DNA of 64,000 bases from Veillonella montpellierensis DSM 17217. GTDB taxonomy: Bacteria; Bacillota; Negativicutes; Veillonellales; Veillonellaceae. A model generated the notes under the pieces. It was not told where the DNA came from and made no database searches. It saw nothing but the letters and a program-made list of their open reading frames with translations. Where the stretch lies: the NCBI RefSeq assembly GCF_000426745.1, contig NZ_AUFY01000001.1, positions 62,001-126,000 on the forward strand, written 5' to 3'. The number at the start of each line of letters is the position of its first letter. Within the stretch, counting starts at the first letter, position 1. Position numbers and translations under genes: made by a program. Shown piece after piece: positions 55,808-61,214 of this stretch.

Positions 55808-56317
55808 TTACAGAGCTTCTTCTATATCTAATAAAACAGGCTTAGAAACTTTTAAACTTTTTTGTATATCAATAATTCGTTGATTTGATGATCCTCTAAA
55901 TGGCAACGATGGATCTTTTAATGCATCTACAAATAATCCGTCAACTAATACATCGCACAATACTAATAATCTATATTTATGAGGGCACGCCATAATTTCT
56001 TCAAATGTATAACCAGAATACGCCCAAATGTCTTTATCCGGTATTGCCGCCCGTACATTAGTTACCAATTCTACTAATCCATCAACATTTTGAAAAGGTT
56101 CTCCCCCAAGTAATGTAAGTCCGCGAATATTTTCATCCTTTATATACTCAATAACTTGCTGTGTTTCTGTATCCGTCCATTCTGCACCTGCAGTAAAATC
56201 TTGATATGACTCATTAAAACAATTATAACATTTATGAGTACAACCAGTTACAAATACAGACGTACGAATCCCTATTCCATTAGCTATATCATACTTTCGT
56301 ATTTGTCCATATCTCAT
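55808..56317 (-). CDS. nrdG: Anaerobic ribonucleotide reductase activase
   Basis: NrdG is the radical-SAM activase that makes the glycyl radical on NrdD. The motif CTHKCYNCFN (CX3CX2C) is near residues 26-35, then LTLLGGEPFQN near 76-86. Length is 169, usual for NrdG. GTAGGG precedes the ATG. It is the second gene after nrdD, separated by 185 bases containing a hairpin. Confidence 0.96.
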   Translation of the reverse strand: MRYGQIRKYDIANGIGIRTSVFVTGCTHKCYNCFNESYQDFTAGAEWTDTETQQVIEYIKDENIRGLTLLGGEPFQNVDGLVELVTNVRAAIPDKDIWAYSGYTFEEIMACPHKYRLLVLCDVLVDGLFVDALKDPSLPFRGSSNQRIIDIQKSLKVSKPVLLDIEEAL

Positions 56318-56502: not shown

Positions 56503-58653
56503 CTAAATATGCATAACTCGATCTTTAATTTCTTTAGTGCGTCCTTCATTCCAAAAATTTTCACCTAAATAACCACAAGTGCGACGAATAACAGTTAATG
56601 TATCACGATTTGTATTATGACATCGTGGACATTCCCACTCATTATCATCATTTACAATGATTTCTCCATCAAATCCACATTCATGACAATAATCAGATTT
56701 TGTATTAAATTCAGCATACGAAATATTATCATAAATGAAACGAATCATTGATAGTACCGCTGGTATATTATGCGTCATATTAGGAATTTCTGCATACGAA
56801 ATACATCCACCAATTGATTTTTTTTGAAATTCAGATTCATAAGCAAATTTATCAAACACATTAATCTCTTCACGTACATTCACATGATAGCTATTAGTAT
56901 AATACCCCTTATCTGTAATATCTTCAATCATACCAAATCTAGCCCGATCAATAGATGAAAAACGATTTGTCAAACTTTCAGCTGGTGTTCCATAAATAGC
57001 AAACCCTATATTGGTTTCTTTTTTCCATGAATCTACGGCTTCATTCATAACGTCCATGATTTTCATAGCAAATTTTTTACCACGAGGGCTTGTGTTAGAT
57101 TCACCAGTAATTAATCTAGTAGCTTCATAAATACCAATATATCCTAAAGAAGCAGTCGCATACCCTCCCAATAAGTATTTGCCAATACATTCGCCTTTTT
57201 TCAAGCGAGCAATGGCTCCATGTTGCCAATGAATTGGTGATACATCACTTGTTACATTTTTTAATAAATTATAGCGTAATAATAGTGCTTTTTTACAAAG
57301 CTCTAATCGTTTTTTCATAATTTCAAAAAATGTTTCTTCATCGCCATTAGCCAAGATTGCCATTTGTGGTAAGTTAATACTAACTACACCCATATTAAAT
57401 CGTCCATCAAATACATATTCACCTTTTTCATTTTTCCATGGTGATAAAAAGGATCTACATCCCATCGGACTAAATACGTTACCTTCATAAATTTCTTTCA
57501 TTTTCTTAGCGGAAATATAATCAGGATACATTCTCTTAGCTGTACAACGAGCAGCTATTTCCGTTAAGTAATAATATGGTGCATCTGGTGTCGCATTATG
57601 CTCATCTAACACATAAATCAATTTAGGAAACGCCGGAGTGATATATACATTAGCTTCATTCTTAACGCCAATAATCCGTTGTTCCAAAATTTCTTCGTCA
57701 ATAAGTGCCGCTTCTTTGGCGTATTCACTATGAGGATCAAAATACATAAATAATGTAACAAATGGAGCCTGTCCATTCGTAGTCATTAATGTATTAATTT
57801 GATATTGAATCGTCTGTATTCCATCTTTTACTTCTTTACGTGTACGTTTCCATGCAATTTCTTTAGCTTTTTCTAAATTAGGTTCTATACCATAAATTTC
57901 AACTTGTTCTTCTAATACATTAGCCAAAATTTTATCATATGATTTTCTCACAAAAGGCGCTAAAATTCGATCAATACCGTTAATACTTTGACCCCCATAC
58001 TGACCTGAAGCTACTTGTGCAATAATTTGTGTCGTTACCGTACAAGCCACTTGAAATGATTTAGGTGTATCTATTTTTTTACCATTAATCACAGTCCCAT
58101 TTGTTAACATATCTTCTAAATTAATTAGACAACAGTTAAACATAGGTTGAATAATGTAATCCATATCATGAAAATGGATAGCCCCACTATCATGAGCTTC
58201 CAAAATATCTTCAGGAATCAGTTTACGTCGAGCAATATCTTTGCTAATCTCCCCGGCAATCAAATCTCGTTGTGTAGATACAATAGCTGCATCTTTATTA
58301 GAATTTTCATCTAATACGGCAATATTAGTGCTATCTAACAATCCAAGGACACCTTCATCACTGGTATTTACCTTTCGTTTAAAAGCTTGAACCGCCTTAT
58401 ATCCTTCATAAGCACGTGCTGTAGCTGGATTATTATATTCCAACAAACGATAATATACTTGATCTTCAATAGCATAAATCGTTATATCTTTATGTAACTT
58501 ATGAGCATATTCCTCAATTTCAGTAGCAATCTTATCAGCTAGACCTTCTTCATATAAACCAGTACTACTGTGCATTGCTTTTTCAATGGCCACAACAATT
58601 TTATTTTTATCAAAATCAACTACTGTACCATCCCGTTTAACGACTCGCAACAT
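56503..58653 (-). CDS. nrdD: Anaerobic ribonucleoside-triphosphate reductase
   Basis: NrdD makes deoxynucleotides without oxygen by a glycyl radical. An N-terminal ATP cone (residues 1-95, KRDGTVVDFDKNKIVVAIEKAM) is followed by the reductase barrel. The C-terminus has the zinc site CHECGFDG...CPRC and the glycyl-radical motif RRTCGYLGE near residue 693. Length is 716. AAGGGGAGGAGACG precedes the ATG. A promoter with two NrdR-like boxes lies 140-185 bases upstream. Confidence 0.97.
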   Translation of the reverse strand: MLRVVKRDGTVVDFDKNKIVVAIEKAMHSSTGLYEEGLADKIATEIEEYAHKLHKDITIYAIEDQVYYRLLEYNNPATARAYEGYKAVQAFKRKVNTSDEGVLGLLDSTNIAVLDENSNKDAAIVSTQRDLIAGEISKDIARRKLIPEDILEAHDSGAIHFHDMDYIIQPMFNCCLINLEDMLTNGTVINGKKIDTPKSFQVACTVTTQIIAQVASGQYGGQSINGIDRILAPFVRKSYDKILANVLEEQVEIYGIEPNLEKAKEIAWKRTRKEVKDGIQTIQYQINTLMTTNGQAPFVTLFMYFDPHSEYAKEAALIDEEILEQRIIGVKNEANVYITPAFPKLIYVLDEHNATPDAPYYYLTEIAARCTAKRMYPDYISAKKMKEIYEGNVFSPMGCRSFLSPWKNEKGEYVFDGRFNMGVVSINLPQMAILANGDEETFFEIMKKRLELCKKALLLRYNLLKNVTSDVSPIHWQHGAIARLKKGECIGKYLLGGYATASLGYIGIYEATRLITGESNTSPRGKKFAMKIMDVMNEAVDSWKKETNIGFAIYGTPAESLTNRFSSIDRARFGMIEDITDKGYYTNSYHVNVREEINVFDKFAYESEFQKKSIGGCISYAEIPNMTHNIPAVLSMIRFIYDNISYAEFNTKSDYCHECGFDGEIIVNDDNEWECPRCHNTNRDTLTVIRRTCGYLGENFWNEGRTKEIKDRVMHI

Positions 58654-58789
58654 AACGTCTCCTCCCCTTATACGCCATCTATTTAATTGCTCTATTTAAG
58701 ATACAGATGCAAACTAATTGTAAAACACACTAGCCACATCCTATATTGCATAATATGTTTCTTTTCATAAATTAGAATTCTTATCAATA

Positions 58790-58818
58790 AGTATACTATA
58801 TATAGTAATTTTACTCAA
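58790..58818 (-). promoter_or_regulatory. nrdD promoter
   Basis: TTGAGT (58813-58818) and TATACT (58790-58795) have 17-base spacing on the minus strand, about 135 bases upstream of the nrdD start. A box-like palindrome overlaps the spacer and the edge of the -10. Confidence 0.75.
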
Positions 58819-58837
58819 CACAAATACTATATATACC
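58795..58837 (-). promoter_or_regulatory. Tandem NrdR-like boxes upstream of nrdD
   Basis: Two copies of ACTATATATA lie at 58795-58806 (ACTATATATAGT, fully palindromic) and 58826-58837 (ACTATATATACC). Their centres are 31 bases apart, about three helical turns, as expected for paired NrdR boxes. One overlaps the promoter spacer and -10 edge; the other abuts the -35. Confidence 0.7.
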
Positions 58838-59130
58838 AATTATGCGATTTTTTCATATGTATAGTATTGACATTTTATAAAATCCTAAACACCTCTATTT
58901 TCCTTAGCTATTACTCATGCATATAAAAATAAATGAATATTTTATCATGTTACACATCTTTATAAAGTAGCATAAATACTAGATATATTATTTTGGCATA
59001 GTAATAGCCTCACTATACCAATTACTCACACTCTTCTTATAAATGGCTTCTGTAAAAGTATCTATAACTATGCTAATCATCTAACTTCAAAACTATATAT
59101 CTACAATTCAACGTATATAAAACTTCATAG

Positions 59131-59167
59131 AAAAAAGCACTCCTATGATATGTCCTCATAGGAGTGT
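59131..59167 (-). terminator. Terminator of the ABC-F gene
   Basis: CACTCCTATGA pairs with TCATAGGAGTG, and on the minus strand CTTTTTTC follows. It lies about 100 bases after the ABC-F stop. Confidence 0.88.
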
Positions 59168-59267
59168 TTATTATGTATTCTATATATTTGTACTACTACA
59201 TGACTCATGATGAATATATACTTGCTCTCTCACTAAAGAGGCTATCTACTACCAATAGTCTGCTAAA

Positions 59268-61214
59268 TTATTCACCGCCCATTAAGGTTTCCCACACTTC
59301 ATATAAATGATCTAACTCTTTTTTCTCCATTTCTAATTCACAGGCTACTCGTTCTAATTCACCTATATCAGATTGTAGTGCTGGATCCATTAACTGTGTT
59401 TCATACATTTTTATAGTGGCTTCTGCTCTGGCAATATTCATTTCTACTTCCCCTATTTTCTTCTCGGCCATATATGAATTAGTAGGTTTAAGAATATGTG
59501 TATCCATTATACTCGTATCATCAGAGTCTTCAAGTTTTTTTCTAGTGGAAATAGTACTTTCTCCTACCTTGTCATCATTCGTGTTTTGAATAATACCTTC
59601 TTTATGCTGTTGCGACAAAAATTCTTGTTCTTTTATTTTTTCTTTATAATACGAATAGTTGCCTATATATTCTGTTATATGTCCATCTTTTAATGCCAAT
59701 GTGCGCGTCGTTATTTGATCTAAAAAATACCGATCATGAGAAATAACAAAACAAGTCCCTTCAAAATCTTGCAAGGCCTTCTCTACTACTTCTCTAGTAC
59801 CGATATCTAAATGATTGGTTGGTTCGTCGAGTATTAAAAAATTATTCCCTTCTAAAAATATTTTCAATAATGCTACTCTAGCTTGTTCTCCCCCAGATAG
59901 CTCCTTAACACGTTTAAAAACATCATCTCCTCGAAATAAAAATCTTCCTAATACATGTCTCGCTTTTTCTTCAGATCCATCAAAATAGCTCTTCACTTCA
60001 TCAATCACTTGCCATTGTGGATGCAATGTTTCATGTTCTTGAGAAAAATACCCTACTTCTACTCGGTTTCCTACTGTAATTGTCCCATCAATAGGCGCTA
60101 TATCTCCCATAATAGTCTTAACTAATGTAGATTTTCCTGCCCCATTAGGCCCAATCAACGCTACCGTTTCTCCTCTACGAACGACAGTTGATAATCCACT
60201 CGCAATAGGCTGCTGACGGTCATAGCCTACTGTAACATCATCTAAAATTAGTACCTTATCCGCACTCATAGACGGTTTAGGGAACGTAAACGCGATTTGT
60301 TCTGTTATTACCGGTGCCTCAATTCGTTCTAATCGATTTAATTGTGATTGTCGTCCTCGTGCCATTTTTGATTTAATTCCTGCACGATATTTATCAATAT
60401 ATGCTTCCGTTTTCTTAATATACTCTTGCTGTTTTTCATAAGCAGCTGCCATTGCTTTCATAGCATGCGCACGCTGATTAATATACTTTGTATAATTACC
60501 TTTGAATACATTGATTTTACATTGCTCTAATTCTACTACACTGGTAACAATATGATCTAAAAAATATCGATCGTGACTAATGACTAGAATTCCTCCTTTA
60601 TAAGAAGATAAATAATTTTCTAGCCATTCTAGCATATCCATGTCCAAGTGATTCGTTGGTTCATCTAAAAACAAAAAATCTGGACTACGTACAAGTGCTT
60701 TCGCCAAATTAATACGTGTTTTTTGACCGCCAGAAAATTCATTAGCCGACTTTCTTAAGTCACTATCAGAGAATCCTAATCCCTTAATAATTCGTTTTGT
60801 TTTTAGTTCATATTCATAGCCGCCGAGCCATTCTAATCGATTCTGCAAATAATCTAATCGTTGTAATTCTTCTTGATTAGGTTCATGACATGCCATATAA
60901 GAAGTCAACTCTTCTAACTGACGTTCCAAGTGATGAATATCTGCCCAAGCAGATTGAATTTCCTCCTCTAAACTACTATCCCCTAAATTGACATCTTGTT
61001 GTAAATAACCAATTTTAACAGTACCGTTTTTAACAACCTGCCCTTTGTCTAGTTCCTCTAACCCTAAAATACATTTCATCAAGGTAGATTTTCCTGCTCC
61101 ATTAGGTCCTACTAGGCCTATACGTTCACCTTGTTTTATCTCAAAAGACACATTAGAAAATATTTGGTCAATACCAAATGATTTTTCTAGCCCTATCATC
61201 TGAATGCGTTCCAT
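59268..61214 (-). CDS. ABC-F family ATPase
   Basis: ABC-F proteins are soluble twin-ATPases that act on the ribosome. Two nucleotide-binding domains are complete: Walker A VGPNGAGKSTLMKC near residues 34-47 and IGPNGAGKSTLVKT near 353-366; signature SGGQKTRI and SGGEQARV; Walker B DEPTNHLD twice. The charged P-site tRNA-interacting linker (residues ~235-300) and a C-terminal coiled coil (~580-645) are present. There are no membrane segments. The long form with coiled coil resembles Uup/YdiF-type more than drug-resistance ABC-F, but this cannot be settled here. CTAGGAGG precedes the ATG. Confidence 0.92.
   Translation of the reverse strand: MERIQMIGLEKSFGIDQIFSNVSFEIKQGERIGLVGPNGAGKSTLMKCILGLEELDKGQVVKNGTVKIGYLQQDVNLGDSSLEEEIQSAWADIHHLERQLEELTSYMACHEPNQEELQRLDYLQNRLEWLGGYEYELKTKRIIKGLGFSDSDLRKSANEFSGGQKTRINLAKALVRSPDFLFLDEPTNHLDMDMLEWLENYLSSYKGGILVISHDRYFLDHIVTSVVELEQCKINVFKGNYTKYINQRAHAMKAMAAAYEKQQEYIKKTEAYIDKYRAGIKSKMARGRQSQLNRLERIEAPVITEQIAFTFPKPSMSADKVLILDDVTVGYDRQQPIASGLSTVVRRGETVALIGPNGAGKSTLVKTIMGDIAPIDGTITVGNRVEVGYFSQEHETLHPQWQVIDEVKSYFDGSEEKARHVLGRFLFRGDDVFKRVKELSGGEQARVALLKIFLEGNNFLILDEPTNHLDIGTREVVEKALQDFEGTCFVISHDRYFLDQITTRTLALKDGHITEYIGNYSYYKEKIKEQEFLSQQHKEGIIQNTNDDKVGESTISTRKKLEDSDDTSIMDTHILKPTNSYMAEKKIGEVEMNIARAEATIKMYETQLMDPALQSDIGELERVACELEMEKKELDHLYEVWETLMGGE

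Follow-up and report, generated by a model that had tools for sequence, protein, structure and literature searches.

The nrdD gene of Veillonella montpellierensis is preceded by two NrdR-box-like palindromes which lie three helical turns apart over its predicted promoter. We consider it very probable that the two boxes together are the operator through which NrdR represses nrdD, and probably nrdG too, in a dATP-dependent manner; binding, nucleotide dependence and repression are attributed by analogy with homologues. The NrdR box pair is a standard bacterial switch that lowers the expression of a gene for DNA building blocks, and the nrdD operator is a further case of this known switch, with the standard architecture.

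Two boxes over the predicted nrdD promoter

The window (i.e. the whole stretch of 64,000 nucleotides analysed) carries on its minus strand nrdD (56503..58653; 716 aa), which encodes the anaerobic ribonucleoside-triphosphate reductase (class III; NF006732 931.6 bits and TIGR02487 527.9 bits, both above cut-off), and downstream of it nrdG (55808..56317, 169 aa), which encodes the activating radical-SAM protein (TIGR02491 173.1 bits, above cut-off). An intergenic region of 614 bp with a G+C content of 27% (58654-59267) lies between nrdD and an ABC-F gene of the same strand, whose end is at 59268. A terminator-like stem-loop of 14 pairs, with T-rich tails on both strands, is found 3' of the ABC-F gene (window 59135-59169). 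An Rfam search of 58500-59400 matched nothing at E 0.1.

The first-pass annotation had described two NrdR-like boxes with centres 31 bases apart, and both were found where it had placed them: ACTATATATAGT at 58795-58806 and ACTATATATACC at 58826-58837, with a centre-to-centre distance of exactly 31 bp. The spacer of 15 bp sets the boxes a whole number of helical turns (three) apart. Scored against the 16-mer NrdR-box consensus ACACWATATATWGTGT, the proximal box (TTACTATATATAGTAT, 58793..58808, minus strand) agrees at 13 of 16 positions, with the conserved C4 and G13 both present and a perfect core, and the distal box (TTGGTATATATAGTAT, 58824..58839, minus strand) at 11 of 16. One box of the pair is imperfect, with CC instead of GT at one end.

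The promoter-like pair TTGAGT-17-TATACT proposed along with the boxes is likewise present, on the minus strand. Its predicted -35 (TTGAGT, 58818-58813) lies between the boxes, and the proximal box covers the spacer and overlaps the predicted -10 (TATACT, 58795-58790). The distal box was said to abut the -35; it does lie upstream of it, but this wording is loose, the gap being 5 bp from the 16-mer and 7 bp from the 12-mer core. The position of the predicted -10 would put the transcription start near 58783 and give the nrdD mRNA a leader of ~130 bases; the centre of the proximal box is ~147 bp from the nrdD start codon.

Conservation of the pair in Veillonella

Lack of conservation of either box in related species would have refuted the NrdR reading. 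Both boxes precede nrdD in all 14 Veillonella genomes, which include many near relatives and are not independent; G000 and G003 have them 31 bp apart, and the remaining 12 genomes 32 bp. A TTG and a TATACT separated by 17 bp are also found before nrdD in 14/14 genomes. With the sequences stacked without gaps and aligned at the proximal box, mean column identity reaches 0.93 in this box and 0.83 in the distal one; the 16-base segment before the proximal box has 0.79, and the flanks have 0.64 (upstream) and 0.63 (downstream). Since such a stack does not allow for the one-base difference in spacing, the distal value is lowered. The leader around the boxes is poorly conserved.

Paired sites elsewhere in the genomes

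The search pattern for paired sites consisted of two 12-mer cores with W, up to 3 mismatches allowed, at a distance of 31 or 32 bp. The genome of V. montpellierensis has this pattern in two places, i.e. before nrdD at 31 bp and before nrdA (followed by nrdB) at 32 bp, for one match at 31 bp and none at 32 bp with the reversed-pattern control. Over the 14 genomes the 32-bp pattern occurs in 15 places (12 nrdD, two nrdAB in G000 and G003, and one before a FapR-like gene in G013; reversed control 0), and the 31-bp pattern in 13 (two nrdD in G000 and G003, seven copies of one common intergenic site and four others; reversed control 3). Class I nrdA is found in 13 of the 14 genomes and the best pair at 31-33 bp before it is spaced by 32 bp in all 13, with a weak distal box; most nrdAB pairs of the relatives fall under the pattern threshold and were located by alignment. 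The sole genome with no class I nrdA match, G001, is in ~240 contigs and may lack the gene only through a gap in the assembly.

The common 31-bp site, present in 7/14 genomes of the genus (L142-L147 and L149, bases 1501-1543), may reflect shared descent only. In L147 it is intergenic and precedes a small ORF of 89 aa, which we take to be PC4/YdbC-like. The paired box-like site of G013 (L141, bases 1501-1544) stands before what are presumably a FapR-like gene and plsX.

The NrdR regulator

Absence of an nrdR gene would likewise have refuted the NrdR reading. A single one is present in the genome, ~46 kb outside the window (C1:172225-172665; TIGR00244 199.2 bits, above cut-off), and nrdR, like nrdD, was found in all 14 Veillonella genomes searched. 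The protein has two CxxC motifs (CPFC and CMAC), D15, R17, RRRR at 26-29 and R37, and D15, R17, R26-R29 and R37 are DNA-contact residues named for the NrdR of Streptomyces coelicolor, with D15/R17 and RRRR serving box recognition (PMC9110341). Residue 12 is a lysine, where S. coelicolor has an arginine, one of six contacting phosphates. NrdR aligns over 149 residues to the solved NrdR 9fvr (E 4.5e-40), the best of five distinct structure sequences.

Autoregulation of nrdR is not supported: inspection by eye of its upstream region in 13 of the 14 genomes (G001, with no start assigned, was left out) revealed no pair conserved at a three-turn or four-turn distance. Several relatives have a box-like 16-mer ~75-80 bp before nrdR, and V. 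montpellierensis has another at -46.

Chance resemblance or another regulator

The region is of a kind in which TATATA-rich promoter DNA might resemble two boxes by chance: its G+C content is low, and the -10 and box sequences overlap. Single boxes are indeed no commoner than expected, with 98 matches in the window at up to 3 mismatches vs 105.7 expected and, per strand of the whole genome with 2 mismatches or fewer, 350 vs 405 for the reversed control; single-box scans were therefore discarded as evidence. Promoter-like sites in the region show no excess either (5 vs a shuffle mean of 5.9). The pair behaves otherwise. Two 12-mers with at most 2 mismatches in total at 31-32 bp did not arise in any of 3000 dinucleotide-shuffled versions of the intergenic region, and an equally good pair under the 16-mer consensus (24 of 32) arose in 12/3000. 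Pairs scoring at least 24 at distances of 16-60 number three in the whole window, and among them that of nrdD alone is spaced by about 31 bp. Since, moreover, the other reductase operon is also preceded by a pair and the nrdD pair is kept with fixed spacing in 14/14 genomes, coincidence is highly improbable, and we regard it as already refuted by conservation.

Conservation alone does not give the identity of the protein, and another dimeric regulator acting on paired palindromes could account for it. Look-alikes do exist at the pattern threshold, as the site before the FapR-like gene of G013 illustrates. But NrdR, which the genome does encode, agrees with the sequence, the 16-bp size, the three-turn spacing and the restriction of the sites, in V. 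montpellierensis, to the two reductase operons, and we give very little credence to a different regulator.

A degenerate distal box

In the left half of the distal nrdD box GG stands for AC, so that the conserved C4 (one G-C pair) is gone; the right half is kept. This C4 is present in 13/13 relatives and is lost in V. montpellierensis only (1/14). Because of this loss the distal box is probably weaker in this species. Inversion of the conserved G-C pairs reduced binding 50-60 fold in S. coelicolor (PMC9110341), and the affinity of E. coli NrdR for a single box is reported to be 530-1000 fold lower (PMC12051234); together with the loss of C4, these results suggest that repression of nrdD may also be weaker.

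The same loss, confined to one genome, and the same E. coli values would also agree with an operator that is decaying in V. montpellierensis, i.e. a distal box that no longer works and an nrdD weakly or not repressed by NrdR. We consider this unlikely: the right half of the distal box and the spacing are kept, the core of the proximal box is perfect, and C4 is likewise missing from the distal box before nrdAB in each of the 13 genomes with such a box, so that weakness of the distal box may be tolerable. Decay of the box could also have tuned the affinity of the operator: with the distal C4 gone, and the proximal box and the spacing unchanged, NrdR would have a looser hold on the anaerobic reductase in V. 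montpellierensis than it has in sister species. We offer this as a tentative and rather doubtful proposal.

Comparison with other bacteria

We also examined 80 further nrdD loci, from Veillonella to Clostridia, with 400 bases upstream (several are short, one has 356 bases, and some are conspecific with the 14 genomes). The best pair before nrdD is spaced by 31-33 bp in 43/80 loci vs 56/800 shuffles, by 41-42 bp in 13/80 vs 55/800, and by another distance in the remaining 24/80. A pair score of at least 25 is reached at 47 of the 80 loci and in none of 800 shuffles. In Peptoniphilus/Aedoeadaptatus (L085, L086, L087, L088 and L089, with L094 an unplaced Bacillota MAG) the nrdD boxes are 41-42 bp apart and both are conserved in alignment, a four-turn spacing outside Streptococcus. 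In Megasphaera (L063, L065, L066) a box pair with 42-bp spacing lies close to the ribosome-binding site of nrdD, and a second, possible pair at ~33 bp stands farther upstream.

Both three-turn and four-turn spacings are reported to bind NrdR; spacers measure 15-16 bp in most bacteria, and NrdR boxes overlap the RNA polymerase site (PMC12051234). The published box-pair architecture, bound by NrdR tetramers loaded with dATP/ATP, is the same (PMC12051234, PMC9110341). The earlier statement that this spacing is typical of NrdR-controlled reductase genes is borne out by these sources, for spacing as for promoter overlap.

Listeria monocytogenes nrdDG is similar in layout, with paired 16-bp boxes, a 15-16 bp spacer (15 here, 16 in 12 Veillonella relatives) and an overlapped RNA polymerase site, but its start codon comes 13 bp after box 2, far nearer than in V. 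montpellierensis (PMC12051234). The nrd promoters of Pseudomonas aeruginosa have two boxes per reductase promoter with box 1 over the -10, and that species has three reductase classes (PMC4409342), whereas classes I and III were found in V. montpellierensis. Streptococcus pneumoniae nrdDG is also preceded by helically phased paired boxes, but with a 25-bp spacer, i.e. four turns instead of three (PMC12051234).

GTDB species genomes have been scanned with a box-pair profile, and the nrdD site may well be included in the published set (PMC9110341). A literature search for NrdR and Veillonella gave, among the papers listed, none on Veillonella NrdR boxes, judged by title, and a search by four taxon names gave no NrdR paper among the matches listed.

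Implications for reductase control

At high dATP, NrdR would be loaded with dATP and ATP and form a tetramer; this tetramer would bind the two boxes from one face of the helix, cover the -35 and -10 and switch nrdD off. Where ATP dominates, NrdR would be released from the boxes. The box pair leaves a clean phylogenetic footprint in Veillonella. These results place both nrdDG and nrdAB of Veillonella in the NrdR regulon and confirm the three-turn box pair as a reliable annotation rule.
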